Both the position numbers and the translations under genes were made by a program. Below are positions 29,860-54,227 of a stretch of DNA of 64,000 bases, piece after piece. Source of the DNA: Halobaculum roseum (GTDB taxonomy: Archaea > Halobacteriota > Halobacteria > Halobacteriales > Haloferacaceae); the NCBI RefSeq assembly GCF_019880245.1, contig NZ_CP082286.1, positions 496,001 through 560,000 of the forward strand, given 5' to 3'. Positions within the stretch are counted from its first letter, which is position 1; each line of letters begins with the position of its first letter. The notes under the pieces were generated by a model that saw only the letters and a program-made list of their open reading frames with translations, searched no databases and had not been told where the DNA came from.

Positions 29860-30474
29860 ATGGGAGCGGACGTACACGGTGGGGTGGGGCCCGCCATCGA
29901 CGAAAACTGGTCGGACGGGACGGCGATGCTTCTCGAGGTTCCGGGGCTCGATCCCCGCGAGCGAGTCGCATGCCGCAGGTTGTTACCCAACTCCGACGGG
30001 ATCGCCAGGTACTGTCGCTTCTCGTTCAGACGCTCCGTCGACGATCAGTTCACGGAGATCTGCCGGCACGGCGACGAGTTGCCCGACCATGGCGTGTGTG
30101 TACAGGTTCGCGGGGGGATCGGGGGAGCGTTCGATCCGACGACCGGCGGTTCCGACGAGGGTCCGCTGTCGGTTCAGACCGTCACCGACCCGTCGAACGT
30201 CACGAAGCTCGGGATCACACTGACGGAAGTGATCGACGAGGCGCCCGACGATGGAGCGACGGCGATCTGCTTCGATTCGCTGACCGTCCTGTTACAGTAC
30301 GTGTCGCTGGAGGAGGCGATCCAGTTCGTGAGTTTGACGAACAGTATCGTCGGCGGGTCCGGCGGCTCCATCCATTATCACGTCGACCCGAGCGCACACG
30401 AGACGGAGACGATCGGGGCGCTTCGCCAGGTGATGGACACCGTGGTCAGCATCGACGAGATCAGCGAGGCGTGA
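29860..30474 (+). CDS. Degenerate KaiC/RecA-fold haloarchaeal protein (DUF7504-like)
   Basis: A 204-residue soluble protein related over its whole length to the product of the minus-strand gene at 30552. Both share an ILV-rich core with TAICFDSLTVLLQYVS, a central strand, and the terminal block HYHVDPSAHETETIGALRQV, which resembles the C-terminal half of KaiC-like ATPases. The position of the Walker A loop is occupied by LEVPGLDPRERVA, lacking the Gly-Lys-Ser/Thr core, so ATP hydrolysis is unlikely. It opens the 29.8-40.5 kb surface-system block. Regulatory or scaffold role inferred only. Confidence 0.7.
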   Translation: MGADVHGGVGPAIDENWSDGTAMLLEVPGLDPRERVACRRLLPNSDGIARYCRFSFRRSVDDQFTEICRHGDELPDHGVCVQVRGGIGGAFDPTTGGSDEGPLSVQTVTDPSNVTKLGITLTEVIDEAPDDGATAICFDSLTVLLQYVSLEEAIQFVSLTNSIVGGSGGSIHYHVDPSAHETETIGALRQVMDTVVSIDEISEA

Positions 30475-30551: not shown

Positions 30552-31442
30552 TCACTCCAACGAGACATCCCCGTCCTCATCGTACTCGACCGTCGCCTCG
30601 AACAGGGAGGCGAACGTTCCGATCGTCTCGGTCGTGTGTCGCGACGGATCGAGGTGATACTGGGCGCGAGCGTTCGCGGTCGAGATCCGACCGGTGAGGA
30701 CGTGGAGAAACCGGAAGATGCGTTGGTGTTCGGTGCTCGCTTCGAGCAGTTCCGACAGGGAGTGCATGCACACGGCAGTCTCGTTCGTCGAGTCCATCCA
30801 GTCGGCGATCGTCCGACTGATCAGGATACCGATGCGCCGGAGGTCCGTCGGGTCCGACACCCGCTGAACGTTCACCGACCGGTCGAACTCGCCGGCGGAG
30901 ACTCGGTCGCTGTACATCGGGACGTGGATCACGGTCAGCTCCCCGATCTCGACCGGCAGATAGTTCCGAAGGATCGACAGCCGCTGGAGGGGCGATTCGT
31001 TGATCGCGACGAGCACGACATCGATCGGCTCACCGGACCGACCCGCCAACAGCCGGGAACAGAGGATGTCCTCGATGACGGCGCCCTCGGGGCCCTTGAC
31101 CAGCACGTTCGGGATGTCTCCGACCAGTTCCAGCAGCGTCGCGATGGTGTCCTCCGCTGACGACGACACTCCTCCCGTCTCCGGCGAATCCACGGCGTCC
31201 CAATCGTCCATCGCGTATCCGTCCGGGTCGGCGTGGTCGGTCCGGTTCGGTTCCCCGCCGGTCCGTCGATCGATCGATTCCGCGAGATCGGAGAGCGTTC
31301 GTGACCGGGACTCTCCATCGGGTGTGGTGTCCGTGTCGCGACCCTCCTCGCCGCCGTCTACGTCCTGGGCGATGTCCCGGAGGGCTCCAAGATCCGACTC
31401 GGTCTCGTCCGCGTCGGGATCCCGTGACTCGTCGCTGCTCAC
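30552..31442 (-). CDS. Degenerate KaiC/RecA-fold haloarchaeal protein (DUF7504-like)
   Basis: A 296-residue protein. Residues 1-100 are an acidic disordered leader (SDESRDPDADETESD...). The fold begins with NVLVKGPEGAVIEDILCSRL, a P-loop-like stretch without the catalytic Lys-Thr/Ser, and includes VVLVAINESPLQRLSILRN, AVCMHSLSELLEAS and YHLDPSRHTTETIGTFASLF. The GTG at 31442 is chosen over the ATG at 31466 because a TATA box (TTTTAT, 31470-31465) lies 23-28 bases upstream of it and would overlap the longer start. Convergent with its shorter homologue at 29860. Confidence 0.72.
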   Translation of the reverse strand: MSSDESRDPDADETESDLGALRDIAQDVDGGEEGRDTDTTPDGESRSRTLSDLAESIDRRTGGEPNRTDHADPDGYAMDDWDAVDSPETGGVSSSAEDTIATLLELVGDIPNVLVKGPEGAVIEDILCSRLLAGRSGEPIDVVLVAINESPLQRLSILRNYLPVEIGELTVIHVPMYSDRVSAGEFDRSVNVQRVSDPTDLRRIGILISRTIADWMDSTNETAVCMHSLSELLEASTEHQRIFRFLHVLTGRISTANARAQYHLDPSRHTTETIGTFASLFEATVEYDEDGDVSLE

Positions 31443-31464
31443 ACGTTCTTCACGCAAGACGATC

Positions 31465-31470
31465 ATAAAA
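31465..31470 (-). promoter_or_regulatory. TATA box, leaderless GTG start at 31442
   Basis: ATAAAA on the plus strand (TTTTAT in gene direction), 23-28 bases before the GTG. It covers the alternative ATG at 31466, which therefore cannot be in the message. Confidence 0.65.
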
Positions 31471-33121: not shown

Positions 33122-34690
33122 ATGTCCCGGTCACTGTGGTATCTCGGCGTGTTGCTTATCATCGCCGGGGTCGTGTTCAGTGCCGTTCCGACCGGGAGCT
33201 ACAGTACGATCGCGGGGTCGCGGCCGGTCGACATCTCGATCGCCGACGACGATTCGGCGGTGATCGCGCTCGTCGACACGGGGGAGTCGGTGACGAACCC
33301 GGGGCAGGGCGGGGGCGGAACGCCGGTCGCGAGGCTGTTCAACAACTTCGATTCGACGCTGACGGTTCGGTTCGACGTGGCGGTCGATACGGAGGCCGTC
33401 ACCGTCTCCGATCCCGACGACCCGGTGACGATCGCGCCGAGTGACGGCCACCAGATCACGGCGCGGTGCACGCCGAGTGTCGGTGGCTCGGGGACGGCAA
33501 CGCTCACCCTCACAGTCATCGAGGCGACCGGCGACCGGGCCCGCGTCACCGACGCGGTGCTGACGGCACAGTTCCCCTACGACTGTCCGGGTGGCGGCGG
33601 CGGCGGGAACGAGCCGCGCCCGGGGAACGGTGTCGCGTACATCGACACCGACGGCGACGGCGAGTACGACGAGGGGGAGGCCACCCTCACCGCGGAGGAG
33701 GTGGCGACCTTCGACAACGACGACGCCGAGCTCGTCGTTCACACCGACGGGGAAACGGTGTCGACGCGACGGGAGATGGATATCACGGCCGCTTCGGTGA
33801 CCGTCCGGGGAACGACGCTCTCCAGTAACCGGGGAGTGTCGATCGCCGCGGACGGCGGCACGGTGTCGTTCCGCGACGCGACGGTTCGGGGGAACAACGG
33901 CCCCGTCGAGATCGAGGGGCGGTCGCTCACCGCCGAGGCAACGACGATCGAGACCAACCAGGGGATCGGCGTCCAGACGGAGACGGAGCTCAGCGTCACC
34001 GACTCCACGTTGCGTGCGCAAAACGGCGAGATAGCCCTCGAAGGGGAGCGCATCTCCGCACGCGGGACGGAGTTCTCCACGAACGAGGACCTGAGCCTCG
34101 CCGCGGACGGCGGGCCGGTCGACATCGAGGACGCGAGCCTCACCTCACAGAACGGCGAGATCAGTGTCTCCGGCGCCGGCGTCTCGGGTGCCGGCGCCTC
34201 GATCACGACGAACGACGCCGTCTCGATCGACAGCGAGGACGGGACGGTCTCGCTCACGGATGCGACCGTCGAGTCCCAGAACGGGGAGATCGCCGTTGCG
34301 GCCCGCGAGCTGGACGCGTCGGGCGCGAGCATCCGAACGAACAGGGAGATCTCGCTGACGACCGACGAAGGCCCGCTCACGATGCGTGATGCGGCGGTGA
34401 CCTCACAGAACGGCGCCATCGAGATCGCCTCGGCGGCGACGCTCGATGCCCAACGGGCGACCGTCGAGACGAACCGCGACATCTCGCTCGGCTCGGTCGG
34501 CGACATGACGCTGTCCTCGGCATCCCTCCGGACGCAGAACGGCGAGCTGACGGCCGAGTTGGATCTAGAGGCGGCGACGCTGACCGTCGACGGACTCACG
34601 ATCCAAAGCCGGGGCAACACGCTTACGTACAGCCCCGCGGAAGCGACCGTCTCCGGATCGCCGGCCTCCGGTCAGGTCGTGTCGGATTGA
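33122..34690 (+). CDS. Secreted beta-helix surface protein with six 43-residue repeats
   Basis: A 522-residue exported protein. One N-terminal hydrophobic helix (WYLGVLLIIAGVVFSAV, residues 6-22) is followed by a beta-sandwich-like domain (about 35-150) that opens SRPVDISIADDDSAVIALV, similar to the start of the DUF1102-like proteins downstream. Then come a Gly-rich hinge and an Asp-rich loop (DTDGDGEYDEGE, calcium-like). From about 230 to 490 six repeats of about 43 residues follow, each with two coils of about 21 residues that alternate a Thr-Asn turn (TTNREISL) with a Gln-Asn-Gly turn (SQNGEI). That periodicity fits a right-handed beta-solenoid. Probable cell-surface structural protein. 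Confidence 0.75.
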   Translation: MSRSLWYLGVLLIIAGVVFSAVPTGSYSTIAGSRPVDISIADDDSAVIALVDTGESVTNPGQGGGGTPVARLFNNFDSTLTVRFDVAVDTEAVTVSDPDDPVTIAPSDGHQITARCTPSVGGSGTATLTLTVIEATGDRARVTDAVLTAQFPYDCPGGGGGGNEPRPGNGVAYIDTDGDGEYDEGEATLTAEEVATFDNDDAELVVHTDGETVSTRREMDITAASVTVRGTTLSSNRGVSIAADGGTVSFRDATVRGNNGPVEIEGRSLTAEATTIETNQGIGVQTETELSVTDSTLRAQNGEIALEGERISARGTEFSTNEDLSLAADGGPVDIEDASLTSQNGEISVSGAGVSGAGASITTNDAVSIDSEDGTVSLTDATVESQNGEIAVAARELDASGASIRTNREISLTTDEGPLTMRDAAVTSQNGAIEIASAATLDAQRATVETNRDISLGSVGDMTLSSASLRTQNGELTAELDLEAATLTVDGLTIQSRGNTLTYSPAEATVSGSPASGQVVSD

Positions 34691-34829
34691 CCGTTCGCAC
34701 GCGGTCCGTTCGGCTGCTGGTTCGGTCGAACGGCTGAGGCCACCGACTGCTTCGACGGACGAACTCGAAGCCGACTCACGGTTCGTGCCGTCTCCGGGTT
34801 CCCTCCAGCGAGCCGACCCATTCCGTGCC

Positions 34830-36041
34830 TCACAGGAATCGCCGTTTGAACCGCTGGACCATGGTGATGTTCCGTCCGGTCGACCGGAGCCGGATCGGCC
34901 CGGCGCCGACGGAGAGGAGGCCGAGCGTCACGGCGACGCCGGCCAGGAACAGGTCGATCGCCGCGATCGCCACGTACGGGTGCACCGCGTGTAACGAGAG
35001 GATGACTGACCGCGGCAACACCGGAATGTACCGCCACTCGCCGATCGCCCGGCTGTACGCGCCGGTCTCCTCCGGCGCCCTGATACGCAGGGTCGTCGTT
35101 CGTTCCGAGCGCGCCGGGACGACGAACACGGACTGAGAGACACTCAGATCCGGGTGTTGCGGTTCGACCACGGTCAGCGTCGGGACGAACCCGTCGTTGA
35201 TGACGCGGTACTCGATCGTCGTCTCGGCACCGGCACCGACGACGAGCGGGTTGTCGTTCGGCGACTGTGAGCTGACGATGTCGAAGGAGGTCGTCCCCGA
35301 CGCCACCACCATGCTCGCGGTCGCCGGTGCCACGACGATCAGGACGATCACCAGCAGGAACGTCGACGTTCGAACGTAGTCCTTGCGGGACCGCGATCGA
35401 CTGGTTCGGCGGTCACTGCCTGCGGATCCCGTGACCAGACTCACGACGATCAGTCCGATCCCGACCCACACGAGCGACTGTGCCGGCCCCGCCCCCTGCA
35501 ACAGGGCCCCGAGGTTCAACGTCGACATGACGACGCCGATGGCCCCCGTGGCTACGCCCTGAATCGCGAGCACTCCCGTTCCGAGGTTGGGAATGACGAC
35601 CACCTGCCCGTTCACTTGGAGCGCCTCGGCGACGATCCGCGACTCCGGGACCGGCGGCTCGACGCTCTCCTGATCGGTAAACGGGTTGGCGTCCCCGCGA
35701 GTGATATACCCCTCCTCCGTTTCGCCGACGACCCGGTGTGTCGTGAGGCCGCCCCCCTGGAGCTCCTGGGCGTCGAACACGACGACGTCGCCCTCCTCCG
35801 GGGGCGGCGTCAGCGCCGCGGGCACGGCGATGAACCCGTCACCCGGCTCAAGCGTCGGCTCCATGCTCCCCGTCTCGACGTAGCCCAGCAGGACGGGTTG
35901 GCCGGCCGCCTGGCCGAACAGGAGCGCACCCGCGCCCAGAACCAACAGGAGCAGCACCAGGTTCTGGAGCGCGTCGGAGAGCTTCACGAACTCCAGTTGA
36001 CGGCCGGATACGTTAAATCGTTGCTCAGAAAGTGCGCGCAT
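34830..36041 (-). CDS. Sec11/SipW-like signal peptidase I with extra C-terminal domain
   Basis: A 403-residue membrane protease. TM1 is at about 26-46. The S26B catalytic pattern follows: Ser59 in ETGSMEPTL, His102 in THRVVGE and Asp117 in TRGDANPFTD, with GDVVVFD as the substrate strand. Standard archaeal signal peptidases end near residue 200; this one continues with TM segments at about 185-205 and 225-247, an extracellular beta-rich domain (about 250-340, SFDIVSSQS...VINDGFVPTLTVVEP) and a final TM at 355-378. The extra domain resembles TasA/camelysin-type domains. Its convergent and divergent neighbours are exported beta proteins, so a dedicated SipW-like processing role is inferred. Confidence 0.85.
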   Translation of the reverse strand: MRALSEQRFNVSGRQLEFVKLSDALQNLVLLLLVLGAGALLFGQAAGQPVLLGYVETGSMEPTLEPGDGFIAVPAALTPPPEEGDVVVFDAQELQGGGLTTHRVVGETEEGYITRGDANPFTDQESVEPPVPESRIVAEALQVNGQVVVIPNLGTGVLAIQGVATGAIGVVMSTLNLGALLQGAGPAQSLVWVGIGLIVVSLVTGSAGSDRRTSRSRSRKDYVRTSTFLLVIVLIVVAPATASMVVASGTTSFDIVSSQSPNDNPLVVGAGAETTIEYRVINDGFVPTLTVVEPQHPDLSVSQSVFVVPARSERTTTLRIRAPEETGAYSRAIGEWRYIPVLPRSVILSLHAVHPYVAIAAIDLFLAGVAVTLGLLSVGAGPIRLRSTGRNITMVQRFKRRFL

Positions 36042-36268
36042 CGCCGACGCGACCGAAGTCCGTCGGAAGCGATGGTGCGTGTCCGCGTTCTAGGTGCGTC
36101 GTCGACCCCGAACACGGTCGTCGAAGCGTGGAAAGCTCGGCTTGAACGGGTATATGATTGCTTGTAGCTGTTTCCAGCAGAGCTTGGAGACGTTCAAGCA
36201 CGTGAATACAAAGTGGGTAGGGGGTAAGGGAATACTATAGACACAGACACGCTGTGTAAGAGGATACT
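36042..36268. promoter_or_regulatory. Promoter region of the three-gene TasA-like cluster
   Basis: A 227-base spacer, AT-richer than its surroundings. GGAATACTATAG (36230-36241) lies about 30 bases before the ATG at 36269 and is the likely TATA box. An inverted repeat ACACAG / CTGTGT (36241-36257) sits between it and the start. AGAGG five to ten bases before the ATG could be a weak ribosome-binding site. No gene seen. Confidence 0.5.
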
Positions 36269-36844
36269 ATGGGAATCAACAGACGCAACATTCTGATCGG
36301 ACTCGGTGCAGTGGTCGGGGGCGGCGGCGCCCTCGTGAGTACGGGCGCGTTTACCACCGTGAGTGCGGAGCGGTCGGTTGAAGTCAGTACGGCAGGCGAC
36401 GCGAGCGCGTTCCTCACGATCACGGGGGACGACCAGTACGTCACCGACGACAGCGGCGACGGAACGCTCACGATCGACCTGGGTGGCCCCGACAGCAACG
36501 GATTCAACCAGGAGGCGGTGACGACGCTCGACGGCGTCGTGACGATCACCAACAACGCCGCCGACGACAGCTCGGCGACGGTCGGCGTGTCGACCGACGG
36601 AGCTGACACCGCGGCAGCGGCCGGGTCGGCCTCGCTGCTGATCGAGGACGGGGGCGACGCGGTCGCGGAGGTGACGTTCTACGTCGGCGAACAGGACGCG
36701 AACTCCATCGACGACGGATCCACCCAGAGTATCGACGCCGGGAACTCCGCCGAACTGGACGTGAAGATCGATACGCGGAGTGACACACTCGACGATTCCG
36801 ACGCGTCCACCGGCGGACTCACCATCGTCGCAGAGGAAGCCTGA
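36269..36844 (+). CDS. Tat-exported DUF1102/TasA-like subunit 1
   Basis: A 191-residue secreted protein. The N-terminus MGINRRNILIGLGAVVGGGG is a twin-arginine-type signal with cleavage likely after Val-Ser-Ala near residue 33. The mature chain opens ERSVEVSTAGDASAFLTI, typical of DUF1102 and reminiscent of TasA/camelysin fibre proteins, and is beta-rich and acidic (VVTITNNAADDSSATVGV). No cysteines or C-terminal anchor. First of three tandem genes; probable extracellular subunit processed by the adjacent signal peptidase (inference). Confidence 0.78.
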   Translation: MGINRRNILIGLGAVVGGGGALVSTGAFTTVSAERSVEVSTAGDASAFLTITGDDQYVTDDSGDGTLTIDLGGPDSNGFNQEAVTTLDGVVTITNNAADDSSATVGVSTDGADTAAAAGSASLLIEDGGDAVAEVTFYVGEQDANSIDDGSTQSIDAGNSAELDVKIDTRSDTLDDSDASTGGLTIVAEEA

Positions 36845-36882
36845 ATATTCAAGTAATCCGAACATAACAGAACGCTATACTA

Positions 36883-37590
36883 ATGCAACGAAGAAAGTTC
36901 ATCACGGCGGTCGGGACGATCGGTGTCGGATCGGGAATGGCGCTGGGGACGGGTGCGGTCGACGCTGTAACCAGTAGTAACGGTGACAGTAGCTTCCGGG
37001 TCGTCGCTCCGGGTGCGGACATCACCATCGATCCCCCAAGCAGTTCGAGCAGTCCGGTCGAAACCGGTACGTCCATCGATTTCGGGGCACTGGAGATCGG
37101 CGACCTCCCCAAGGTCGCCGTCACGGACGCCGACGGGATGGTTCAGATCGAGGTCGCGGTGGAACTCGGGACAACACCGGGCGATGTCGGAACGGTGTTC
37201 ACCGTCACGAACAACAGTAGCACGACGGCGTACGATGTCGGCTTCACGTACACGGGGTACGGCGAGACAGTCACCGGCGGCGAGTACGATACCATCGATC
37301 AATCAGTCGCCCAGAGTGCGTTCCAGCTGATCGACGGAGAAACGGACTCGAGTCCGTCCACGTATTCGCCTACCGGTGGTGGTACGGATCCCGCGAACAG
37401 GTTCTCTCTCCCGAACAGCTCCGATAGCAAGGAAGTCGCCCTCTCGATCGACGCAGGCCTGTCCGAGCTCACGAACAACCTCGGGAACGACGGGACGTTC
37501 GATCAGGACGTCTCCGAGAACGACTTCTCCAGTACCTCCTACAGCCTGATCGAGGAAGTCACTGCGAACGCCCAGGGAAGTTCCCAGTAA
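36883..37590 (+). CDS. Tat-exported TasA/DUF1102-like subunit 2
   Basis: A 235-residue secreted protein with a twin-arginine-type signal (MQRRKFITAVGTIGVGSGMA). The mature chain is Ser/Thr/Asp/Gly-rich with the recurring pattern SSFRVVAPGADITI and VFTVTNNSSTTAYDVGFTYT, an immunoglobulin-like beta arrangement. No cysteine or membrane anchor. It follows subunit 1 by 38 bases and precedes subunit 3 by 12, so the three form one operon. Low similarity to subunit 1 outside the fold pattern. Function inferred from context only. Confidence 0.72.
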   Translation: MQRRKFITAVGTIGVGSGMALGTGAVDAVTSSNGDSSFRVVAPGADITIDPPSSSSSPVETGTSIDFGALEIGDLPKVAVTDADGMVQIEVAVELGTTPGDVGTVFTVTNNSSTTAYDVGFTYTGYGETVTGGEYDTIDQSVAQSAFQLIDGETDSSPSTYSPTGGGTDPANRFSLPNSSDSKEVALSIDAGLSELTNNLGNDGTFDQDVSENDFSSTSYSLIEEVTANAQGSSQ

Positions 37591-37602
37591 TCGGTAGCCC
37601 CG

Positions 37603-38208
37603 ATGCACAGACGACGCCAATTCCTCGTCGCGGTCGGGAGCGCGGTCGCGACGGGTGGTGTCGTCGGGTTGAGTGCCTCCTCGTCGGTTGCATCCAGCAC
37701 CAACGCCGACTTCCGTATCGTCGCGCCACAACTGATCACCCTCACCCCGACAAACGACCCGCCGATCCACGTTCGAACGAACGACGACGGCTACGTCACA
37801 GCGATCACGCCCGGGGGCGGGGAACGGGGCGTCAACGGGCACGCGATCACCCGGTTCGAGGACATCGTCGACATCACGAATGCGACCACGGCCGACCTCA
37901 CGGGGATCTACTTCGAGTTCGAGGCGACCAGCGACACGCTCGACGACGGGACGCTCGCCGATATCGAGGCCGCGCTGGTGGTCACCGCGGGATCGGAGCC
38001 CCTCGCCACGACCGGCGAGTCCGGCGACGACCTCCTCGCTGCGAGCGACGACCCGACCGTCGCCGACGGCGTCCTCGGGCCCGGCGAGTCCGTCCCCTTC
38101 GGCGTCCAGGTGAACCTCATCCCCGAGACGGCGCCGGGTACGATCTCGTCGCTCCCGAGCGGCGAGTACGACGTGCGGCTGCGCGTCATCACCGAGCGAG
38201 ACGGCTGA
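37603..38208 (+). CDS. Tat-exported TasA/DUF1102-like subunit 3
   Basis: A 201-residue secreted protein with a twin-arginine signal (MHRRRQFLVAVGSAVATGG) and a mature start ADFRIVAPQLITLTPTND that parallels the FRVVAPGADITI of subunit 2. The rest is acidic beta sheet (DIVDITNATTADLTGIYFEF) ending GEYDVRLRVITERDG. No anchor or cysteine. The stronger resemblance to subunit 2 than to subunit 1 suggests that 2 and 3 arose by duplication and then diverged. Confidence 0.72.
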   Translation: MHRRRQFLVAVGSAVATGGVVGLSASSSVASSTNADFRIVAPQLITLTPTNDPPIHVRTNDDGYVTAITPGGGERGVNGHAITRFEDIVDITNATTADLTGIYFEFEATSDTLDDGTLADIEAALVVTAGSEPLATTGESGDDLLAASDDPTVADGVLGPGESVPFGVQVNLIPETAPGTISSLPSGEYDVRLRVITERDG

Positions 38209-38327: not shown

Positions 38328-38891
38328 ATGGCACAGCACGGCGATGACGGGTTGCTCGCCGCGGAGACGAGCGAGGGGGACCTCTCCCGCGATGAGATAT
38401 TCGAGCTCATCAGCAATCCGCGTCGGCGCCACGCGATCCGGTACTGCAAGATGCAGGACGGGCCGGTCCAACTGGCCGACCTCGCCGAACAGGTGGCCGC
38501 GTGGGAACACGACAAGGAGATCGCGGACGTCACCTCCAGCGAGCGGAAGACGGTGTACACGTCCCTCCAGCAGACCCATCTCCCCCGGCTCGACCGGGCG
38601 AACGTCATCGACTTCGAGAACGGAACCGTCGAGTTGACCGACCAGATACGGCAGCTGAACATCTACCTCGATATCGTTCCCGAGGGATCGATCTCGTGGG
38701 GCGTGTACTATCTGGGGCTGTCCCTCCTGTCGATCGTCGTTCTGGCCGCGTTGTGGTTGGACTTTCTGCCGACCGATCCGCCGTCGGTGCTCGTGTACCC
38801 GACGGCGGTCGTGGTCGTCTTCGCCGTCTCGGCGGTCTATCACACCTACCTGAACCACCGGTACCGGTTCGAGGAGTTCGAGCGCCCCTGA
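38328..38891 (+). CDS. HTH-domain membrane protein (DUF7344-like)
   Basis: A 187-residue protein. Residues 15-115 form a winged-helix domain (EIFELISNPRRRHAIRYCKM, then LADLAEQVAAWEHDKEIADV and SERKTVYTSLQQTHLPRLDR), followed by two membrane helices at about 122-144 and 152-172. Haloarchaea have many such regulators in which a DNA-binding domain is tied to the membrane. TCTTACC, 20-27 bases before the ATG, may be the TATA box. Its position next to the surface-protein genes suggests it controls them. Confidence 0.78.
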   Translation: MAQHGDDGLLAAETSEGDLSRDEIFELISNPRRRHAIRYCKMQDGPVQLADLAEQVAAWEHDKEIADVTSSERKTVYTSLQQTHLPRLDRANVIDFENGTVELTDQIRQLNIYLDIVPEGSISWGVYYLGLSLLSIVVLAALWLDFLPTDPPSVLVYPTAVVVVFAVSAVYHTYLNHRYRFEEFERP

Positions 38892-38918: not shown

Positions 38919-39941
38919 TCAGAACTCCAGCCACATGTCGGTCTCCTCGGCGTCGTGCGCGTAATAGTAGATCTCGTCGCCGTCGATCACCGCGTACGCG
39001 TCGAGTTCAGGGTCGAAGATGACACGACGGCCGGAGTCGATCGCCACGTCGACGAGGTCCTCCAGGGTGAGGATCGAGATGTACTGTTTGTCCGACTCCG
39101 TCGGGAACTCGCCCCGGGAGATCCACTCCTCGTTGCGGTCGTGAACGATGTTCACGCGGAGGGTTTCCGGGTCGGCGGTCCGTTCGATCCGAACGACCGT
39201 CGCGCTCAGGAGGATCAACACCAGCCCGAGCACGCCGATACCGCCGTACTCGAACGGTGTCGGCGGCTGTCGGACCTCACGGGTCACCGTCCTCGACCGG
39301 GTTTCCTCGGCGCTCGGCTGCTCCTCGAGGTAGTAGGCCTGACCCGACAGGACGAACGGCGTGGTCGTCGAGTACGTCCCGTCGTACCGGTCGGTTTCGT
39401 ACGTGGTGTTCACGACGACGGTTATTCGAAACTGCCCGGCGCCGCCGACCACCGCCTGTCTCGCCAACAGCGCCTCACGGATCCGGCTGACGTTGACCGT
39501 GGCTCGATGCGTCACCGTTCCGTTCGTCGGCGTGGACGTCGCCTCGATCAGCGTTCGACGTTCCGAGAAGAACGGTCGGTCGTCCCGGAGCCCGACCGTC
39601 TCGATGGCGAGCGTGTGCCCGACAGCCTCCAACCGGCCGTCCGGCCCGCTTGTCCGGGTGACGAACGTCAACTCCGGCGAGACGGACGTGAAGTACACCG
39701 ACCGATTCCTGAGCGTCGTCCCCCGATCGTACAGCGTCGTGTTTCCGGTGACGACCGCCTCGGTATCGACGTCGGTCTCCATGGACTGGACGTTTCGCTC
39801 CTCGGAGACGGTCTCGACGGTCGGCGTGGCGAAGACGTACCCGGCGGCGACGAGACAGAGCAGCCCCGCGATCACCAGCGAGACGGCGAGCGGGCGGGCC
39901 CGCTGTGCGATGAAGTACGTGGCTCGGTCTTCAAACGCCAT
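38919..39941 (-). CDS. DUF5305-like bitopic/polytopic membrane protein
   Basis: A 340-residue protein with TM helices at about 20-41 and 244-266. Between them lies an extracellular beta-rich domain (residues 45-240) with repeated Thr/Val strands such as TEAVVTGNTTLYDRG and TTYETDRYDGTYSTTTPFVL. The C-terminal cytoplasmic part (VNIVHDRNEEWISRGEF...IFDPELDAYAVIDGDEIYYY) looks like a small regulatory domain. In haloarchaea such proteins are recurrent neighbours of S26 peptidases and DUF1102 proteins (from memory, not checked). GGGAGTG five bases before the ATG may be a ribosome-binding site. Confidence 0.75.
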   Translation of the reverse strand: MAFEDRATYFIAQRARPLAVSLVIAGLLCLVAAGYVFATPTVETVSEERNVQSMETDVDTEAVVTGNTTLYDRGTTLRNRSVYFTSVSPELTFVTRTSGPDGRLEAVGHTLAIETVGLRDDRPFFSERRTLIEATSTPTNGTVTHRATVNVSRIREALLARQAVVGGAGQFRITVVVNTTYETDRYDGTYSTTTPFVLSGQAYYLEEQPSAEETRSRTVTREVRQPPTPFEYGGIGVLGLVLILLSATVVRIERTADPETLRVNIVHDRNEEWISRGEFPTESDKQYISILTLEDLVDVAIDSGRRVIFDPELDAYAVIDGDEIYYYAHDAEETDMWLEF

Positions 39942-50734: not shown

Positions 50735-51102
50735 GCGACACGCGATACGACGACACCGAAACCATGAGCTACGAGGACACCGACCAGACCGACGAGACGC
50801 GGGAGACAGACGACGTACCGGCCGAGCTCGAGGAGATGAGCCTGGACGAACTGCGCGAGGAGATCGCCGACATCGACCGCGAGTTGGTCGAACTCATCGC
50901 CCGGCGGACGTACGTCGCCGACACCATCGCCGAGGTGAAGGAGCGTCGCGACCTGCCGACGACCGACGAGACCCAGGAGCAGGCCGTGATGGACCGTGCC
51001 GGCGAGAACGCCGAGCGCTTCGAGGTGGACGCGAACCTCGTGAAGGCGATCTTCCGGCTGTTGATCGAGTTGAACAAGGTGGAACAGCGGGAGAGCCGGT
51101 AG
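50731..51102 (+). CDS. Chorismate mutase (AroQ class)
   Basis: A 123-residue all-helical chorismate mutase converting chorismate to prephenate. The core MSLDELREEIADIDRELVEL, ARRTYVADTIAEVKERRDLP and AIFRLLIELNKVEQRESR carries the AroQ active-site Arg, Lys and Glu/Gln residues. The GTG at 50731 overlaps the aroK stop (GTGA); an ATG at 50764 is a shorter alternative, and the extra leader is acidic and disordered. Its last 11 codons are echoed at 54158-54189. Confidence 0.92.
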   Translation: MSDTRYDDTETMSYEDTDQTDETRETDDVPAELEEMSLDELREEIADIDRELVELIARRTYVADTIAEVKERRDLPTTDETQEQAVMDRAGENAERFEVDANLVKAIFRLLIELNKVEQRESR

Positions 51103-51105
51103 CCG
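51071..51105 (+). repeat. Direct repeat copy 1 (chorismate mutase 3' end)
   Basis: 35-base segment including the stop codon; 29 of 35 bases match 54158-54192, with CGGGAGAGCCGGTA identical. Both copies read Leu-Asn-x-Val-Glu-x-Arg-Glu-Ser-Arg-stop. Confidence 0.75.
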
Positions 51106-51302
51106 AACTCGCGCGCTTCAAGGCAGCTATTGTTGTTCAAGCAATTGATCCTTCTTCCAATAATACCTCTTTCGCTCGTCGATCGACGATCGATACCACA
51201 GAAGTCTTTCACCGGATTGGCGTCGCGCCCAGGATTCGGGAACTGTATCCTTCGCTCATTTCTACTCGTTCACGGAACGCAGAGGTCAAAATAGGCGAGA
51301 GA
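51103..51302. other. AT-richer spacer at the island edge
   Basis: 200 bases with poly-pyrimidine and AATAATACC stretches plus the inverted repeat CGTCGATCGACG (about 51178-51189). No gene, RNA or attachment site recognised beyond the adjacent direct repeat. Confidence 0.45.
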
Positions 51303-53919: not shown

Positions 53920-54227
53920 GCTATCAATGCACAGGGCACACTCATTAAGTGTACTTTCAGACTGTCGGTGGGGGTCCGAGAAAGTGGGAACACATTCGCT
54001 AAACCTATCCAACGGAGATATCGACGAGACGTCACCGCCGGTGGCGGAGGCTCTTTTATATACGGACAAAATAGACGCTCTCTTCTGCTCAGTTCCGGGG
54101 ACCTAAACACAGACGAAGCAGTCGTATCGCGGCTATCCGTTACGGATTTCAGCGACCTGAACTCGGTCGAACGACGGGAGAGCCGGTAACCGGACCCCGA
54201 TAGCCTGCGCCCCTTCTCCCGAACGTC
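53920..54227. other. 308-base spacer ending in the second direct repeat
   Basis: Holds the promoter of the zinc-ribbon regulator and, on the plus strand, a strong orphan TATA box (TTTTATATAC, 54053-54062) with no recognisable gene behind it. It ends with direct-repeat copy 2. An 11-codon remnant of chorismate mutase can be read just before 54189. Confidence 0.55.
54158..54192 (+). repeat. Direct repeat copy 2 (remnant of chorismate mutase 3' end)
   Basis: Matches 51071-51105 at 29 of 35 bases and encodes the same Leu-Asn-x-Val-Glu-x-Arg-Glu-Ser-Arg-stop tail, but with no mutase gene in front of it. The two copies bracket the AT-richer segment 51106-54157. Confidence 0.75.

Follow-up and report, generated by a model that had tools for sequence, protein, structure and literature searches.

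What would a haloarchaeon build with a signal peptidase set among exported, beta-rich proteins? The question is raised by a gene cluster of Halobaculum roseum at positions 33122-38208 of what we call the window, the whole stretch of 64,000 nucleotides analysed here (contig 1, positions 496001-560000, of a genome of 3.72 Mb), to which we add a flanking gene reaching 39941. An earlier note, made from the letters alone, had seen in this cluster a module devoted to exporting and assembling an extracellular fibre or matrix, likened to the TasA fibres and SipW peptidases of Bacillus. Its gene calls and coordinates (solenoid protein, S26 peptidase, three tandem subunits and helix-turn-helix (HTH) membrane protein) were correct, and a fibre module with its own cognate S26 peptidase is supported both by homology to a solved pilin and by a conserved gene neighbourhood. 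The fibre itself is very probably of another kind: a divergent form of the tafi (Tat-fimbriae), pili of haloarchaea known from experiment since 2025 (Galeva et al. 2025, iScience, as cited in PMC12687288). The features on which this answer depends are the following.

33122-34690, plus strand: Sec-type protein of 522 residues combining a pilin-like N-domain with a beta-solenoid, proposed TafC-like tip or adhesin
34830-36041, minus strand: S26 signal peptidase of archaeal type, with Ser/His/Asp and a C-terminal beta domain between transmembrane (TM) segments
36193-36218 (core 36205-36218), plus strand: putative pilin promoter element TTCAAGCACGTGAATACAAAGTGGGT (stretch AATACAAAGTGGGT), from comparison of upstream regions
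36241-36257, plus strand: predicted 5'-leader hairpin ACACAG-ACACG-CTGTGT, from compensatory changes
36260-36263, just 3' of the leader hairpin: Shine-Dalgarno-like GAGG
36269-36844, plus strand: 191-residue pilin of TafE/9P0A type with predicted Tat export, proposed main fibre subunit
36883-37590, plus strand: 235-residue beta subunit with predicted Tat export, subtype-specific, linked by profile to the 201-residue subunit
37603-38208, plus strand: 201-residue beta subunit with predicted Tat export, subtype-specific, TafE 24 bits, linked by profile to the 191-residue subunit
38328-38891, plus strand: DUF7344 winged-HTH membrane protein, candidate regulator (PF24035, 2.6e-27)
38919-39941, minus strand: DUF5305 membrane protein, built as TM, large domain, TM (PF17231, 8.7e-46)

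The identification starts from the 191-residue protein. A profile of its family (65 sequences) has a single strong sequence match in the PDB, chain C of 9P0A, described as "Pilin" (E 1.3e-30) in an entry titled "Structure of Natrinema sp. J7-2 Tafi pilus". In Natrinema gari the corresponding cluster encodes a pilin 100% identical to 9P0A over the mature region, and there, too, S26, DUF5305 and DUF7344 genes are its neighbours (L173). Structure points the same way: for the AlphaFold2 model of the 191-residue pilin (predicted local distance difference test score, pLDDT, 81.7) the best match is again 9P0A (Foldseek 2.8e-4; Z 7.8, root-mean-square deviation 3.3, 122 residues aligned). In this monomer alignment the common core begins at model residue 22 and at residue 46 of 9P0A, leaving about 20 N-terminal residues unmatched, as expected for a donor strand. 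Behind 9P0A come AbpA bundling pili at Z 7.2 (7UEG), FimA-type pilins at a Z of about 6 and, at Z 5.6, an archaeal thread (7PNB). Known donor-strand pili are among these matches, and donor-strand assembly, for which the earlier note had suggested looking, is probable.

Several points weigh against a tafi assignment. No protein of the window attains the curated NCBIfam cut-offs of TafA, TafC, TafE or TafF, and TafF was not detected in the genome by a search that had no positive control. The fold Z-scores stay below 8, a range in which common beta-sandwich arrangements score too, and unrelated PapD/MSP-like beta sandwiches reach similar Z among the matches of the 191-residue model. The AlphaFold2 model of the 201-residue subunit is poor (pLDDT 60), its structural matches not being interpretable, and the details of the reference tafi cluster used here are NCBIfam and PDB names. 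As to the cut-offs, the 191-residue protein scores 67.9 bits for TafE (cut-off 155) and 36.7 for TafA (cut-off 190), and the 9P0A-type pilin likewise remains under them with 77 and 53 bits. The PDB sequence matches of the 201-residue subunit (DnaK, designed proteins) were discarded as noise.

Profile-profile comparison argues that the three tandem subunits and the N-domain of the 522-residue solenoid protein form one family. The 191-residue profile is linked to that of the 201-residue subunit (98.1%, E 1.3e-13) and to the solenoid protein's N-domain (95.4%, E 1.7e-8), and the 201-residue profile to the 235-residue one (91%, E 1.1e-6); the direct link between the 191- and 235-residue profiles is weak (38%, 3e-4). 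The motifs that had been noticed to recur across these proteins therefore go beyond chance and can be read as related mature N-termini. All three tandem proteins carry RR-type signals that predict Tat export, as had been claimed, namely NRRNILIG (gene at 36269), QRRKFIT (36883) and HRRRQFLV (37603), the third scoring low with the NCBIfam model TAT_signal_seq (13.2 bits; cut-off 16.7). Where the mature pilins begin, T-G-A-F is nearly invariant, its A and F wholly so. The 9P0A chain has 188 residues with numbering up to 215, in keeping with a mature start at F28 provided that there are no gaps, and A27-F28 of the window pilin fall at the same numbers; the signal is most likely cleaved at TGA/F28. 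A DUF1102 label had also been suggested for these subunits. The window proteins have no match to Pfam DUF1102, which is matched by some homologues in sister clusters; no paper on DUF1102 turned up in a literature search.

The design of the 522-residue protein is that of a pilin domain with something added. A hydrophobic segment at residues 4-22, without a twin Arg, and a 43-residue repeat (self-identity 21.6%, where 500 shuffles gave no more than 16.7%) bear out the description of it as an exported beta-solenoid protein. Its pilin-like N-domain reaches about residue 155, with Cys116 and Cys155 invariant; the profile of the protein also matches 9P0A (E 0.011), and its orthologue in locus L114 matches TafC (2.9e-11). 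The solenoid part varies in length between orthologues and is absent in Haloferax marinum and H. profundi. In canonical clusters TafC joins a pilin domain to an exchangeable C-terminal part (LamG or bactofilin), and the window protein shows the same design with a beta-solenoid in that place; we propose that it is a TafC-like, pilin-domain tip or adhesin.

The peptidase is of the archaeal signal peptidase I type (TIGR02228, 55.3 bits, above the cut-off of 51.85). The Ser59/His102/Asp117 triad attributed to it in a 403-residue frame corresponds to S41/H84/D99 in a frame of 385 residues, and is invariant in 18 homologues. The shorter frame reflects a start that may lie at 35987 instead of 36041, because the alignment with homologues sets in only at about residue 17. 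The beta-rich extension is likewise real: beyond the catalytic domain come TM segments, with a beta-rich domain between those at about 210-228 and 339-357 (385-residue numbering), and this domain may bind the subunits. Many Natrialbaceae peptidases seemed to have another S26 paralogue next to them; this reading was rejected, as the sequences inspected are TafF-like proteins that combine a pilin-like N-domain with CARDB domains and end in a TM segment. Such a TafF-like anchor, with one or more CARDB domains between the same two ends, adjoins S26 at L128 (5660-6802), L159 (4178-5809) and similar loci of Natrialbaceae and Haloferacaceae, and is missing in the window's subtype.

A rival reading is a TasA/camelysin-SipW matrix-fibre system proper, descended in common with that of Bacillus. 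The two would work alike, a dedicated archaeal-type peptidase serving a beta subunit that forms a donor-strand fibre (PMC9674648). An archaeal-type S26 peptidase does stand beside beta subunits here, and the mature start bears a conserved motif of a small residue and an aromatic one (TGAF here; in TasA, a Phe stands at P2'). TasA itself appears as a structural match (8AUR, Z 4.9) of the low-confidence 201-residue model only. For the 191-residue model, the structure comparison proposed earlier returned AbpA, the second-best match, with TasA not among the 50 matches listed. No camelysin, TasA or SipW-cognate-signal model of Pfam or NCBIfam matches the window proteins at E<=1, and the peptidase scores 26.8 bits with the SipW model NF046067 against a cut-off of 190. 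TasA travels via Sec, whereas the window subunits carry Tat signals; DUF5305 and DUF7344 are extra partners; and 9P0A is a far closer relative. Shared descent with TasA-SipW is accordingly very unlikely, the assignment to the TasA/camelysin or SipW families is not supported, and on these sequence comparisons tafi supersedes it as the family label.

The tafi remain the closest known system also when other archaeal fibres are considered. They share with the window a Tat-exported beta pilin homologous to the 191-residue protein, an S26 peptidase, a tip-like pilin-domain protein, DUF7344 and usually DUF5305 nearby; they differ in that the window subunits lie under the NCBIfam thresholds, that the 235- and 201-residue subunits are additional, that no TafF is recognisable, and that a solenoid replaces the LamG or bactofilin domain. 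The AbpA bundling pili of Pyrobaculum calidifontis, although close in structure, have no detectable sequence-profile match with the 191-residue family, and their gene neighbourhood differs from that of the window cluster. The thread of Sulfolobus acidocaldarius, Saci_0406, is likewise an archaeal donor-strand filament whose beta subunits are freed by signal peptidase I, but it is Sec-exported where the window subunits have Tat signals, and it is isopeptide-linked and heavily glycosylated (PMC9715654).

Does the gene set hold together beyond this genome? Searched with the peptidase, 202 of 242 Halobacteria genomes proved to have a relative, many of the matches strong and full-length, some weak or partial. 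The neighbourhood was counted at 65 loci with complete flanks, picked by the peptidase alone, and from clean alignments; the iterative hidden Markov models had drifted, those for the solenoid, TafE-like, 235- and 201-residue proteins merging and that for S26 absorbing CARDB/TafF-like anchors. The pilin family is present at 63 of these loci, so that the association of S26 with it recurs across Halobacteria; DUF5305 is found at 59, DUF7344 at 54, and all three at 52. In Halorubrum sp. PV6, one stretch holds S26, a TafC-like protein, a DUF7344-type protein, TafA, TafE and a TafF-like protein. The full arrangement of 191-, 235-, 201- and 522-residue types has its nearest relatives in nine Halobellus and Haloferax loci, where not all parts are intact or detected each time (the 235-residue type has no close match in L114). 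The DUF5305 gene, beyond the coordinates first drawn and the single copy in the whole genome, is part of the same unit. Control by the DUF7344 HTH membrane protein, proposed in the earlier note, is plausible because that family occurs at 54 of the 65 loci. This genome has 11 DUF7344 matches; besides the window gene, two strong DUF7344 genes stand in opposite orientation about 4 kb apart at another place in it (G000:C3:185327-185566 and 189262-189501).

This neighbourhood bears on a second possibility, that the proteins do not polymerise at all but are secreted or membrane-held matrix or S-layer-associated proteins, processed by a general peptidase. Beta-rich secreted proteins are plentiful in haloarchaea, the fibre is predicted here from genes, and neither assembly ATPase nor usher was seen in the cluster. 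Sequence homology to a solved pilus subunit and a dedicated neighbourhood repeated across Halobacteria nevertheless make it highly improbable. The thought that the window proteins are minor decorations of a pilus of another assembly class, such as type IV, with genes elsewhere is scarcely credible: type IV pili and archaella are known from haloarchaea, but subunits that have type I signals (Tat or Sec) and fold as beta sandwiches, with no N-terminal alpha-helical pilin core, do not suit it.

For the tafi pilus, a course of assembly may be proposed. The Tat pathway would export folded 191-, 235- and 201-residue pre-pilins, and the clustered S26 peptidase would remove the signal and so free an N-terminal strand. 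The subunits, as incomplete immunoglobulin-like folds, would then polymerise by each donating its strand to the next. The 191-residue protein is the likely rod subunit, and the solenoid protein would sit at the tip, like TafC. In place of a chaperone-usher, the peptidase's beta domain, DUF5305 or both could form a membrane assembly site that holds or hands over subunits.

The region upstream of the 191-residue gene carries a signature of its own. The string TTCAAGC(N4)GAATACAAAGTRGGT is common to all 10 loci of the subtype, with no chance match expected in the window, and a 15-mer of the element has one mismatch-free occurrence in this genome. If up to one mismatch is allowed, its 14-mer core is found in 43 of 67 upstream regions of pilin genes against 6 of about 1300 stretches taken as controls from those loci. 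A scan of 97 haloarchaeal genomes returned 12 exact copies of the core of TTC..G(N6)AATACAAAGTRGGT, each in a different genome (reversed control: 0); 11 of them stand a short way upstream of Tat pilin genes that TafA or S26 had already located, and the twelfth (G020) is likewise close upstream of one. The element is present at the window, L112-L120, L125, L133, L139, L149, L190 and others; L005, L009, L072-L078 and other canonical TafA loci do not have it. Where the start codon is close (L090-L092, L121, L139, L149, L190), the core starts about 33 nucleotides before the ATG. Since this is the TATA-box distance of a leaderless transcript, we read the element as a putative specialised core promoter, with a predicted transcription start near 36238, about 33 nucleotides from the start of the core. 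The hairpin behind it has 7 consensus pairs, 3 of them with changes on both sides (among 10 Halobellus, Haloferax and window loci, several closely related), and a conserved 5'-leader hairpin in this subtype may be proposed with moderate confidence. Upstream of the core, half-sites GCTTG ... TTCAAGC about 30 nucleotides apart (window 36158-36199) are kept in several orthologues and are a possible operator.

Taken together, these features allow a tentative joint reading, which as a whole has somewhat less than an even chance. In a large haloarchaeal lineage (Haloferacaceae, Natrialbaceae and others), the tafi pilin genes could be driven by a dedicated core promoter of this form, far more strongly conserved than a usual TATA box and all but restricted to pilin genes, which would imply a dedicated transcription factor (DUF7344 being a candidate) or TFB/TBP; the window's subtype would add the leader hairpin, and a peptidase with its own pilin-binding beta domain would merge processing with assembly.

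The surroundings of the cluster can be described briefly. On its other side, the proteins at 30552-31466 (matching DUF7504/DUF7090) and 29860-30474 lie outside the conserved pilus neighbourhood. The window has no tRNA, and the cluster region no Rfam RNA. Farther off, an imperfect 48-nucleotide direct repeat (77%; 51061-51108 and 54148-54195) bounds a stretch of low G+C content (about 0.58-0.62), a possible insertion that codes for a regulator and an export protein, probably cupredoxin-like.

The kind of system described here is already known. New, as far as checked, are a subtype that has extra subunits and one subunit carrying a solenoid, the very frequent association with DUF5305 and DUF7344, and the pilin-specific promoter element, some of which may already be in the original tafi description. 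The element offers a sequence handle for finding the system and for testing it genetically in Haloferax strains of the same subtype, such as H. gibbonsii and H. prahovense. Beta proteins that stood unannotated, a peptidase and two DUF families are now linked to newly recognised, Tat-dependent pili, and the counts across genomes suggest that in Halobacteria this machinery is no rarity but widespread.

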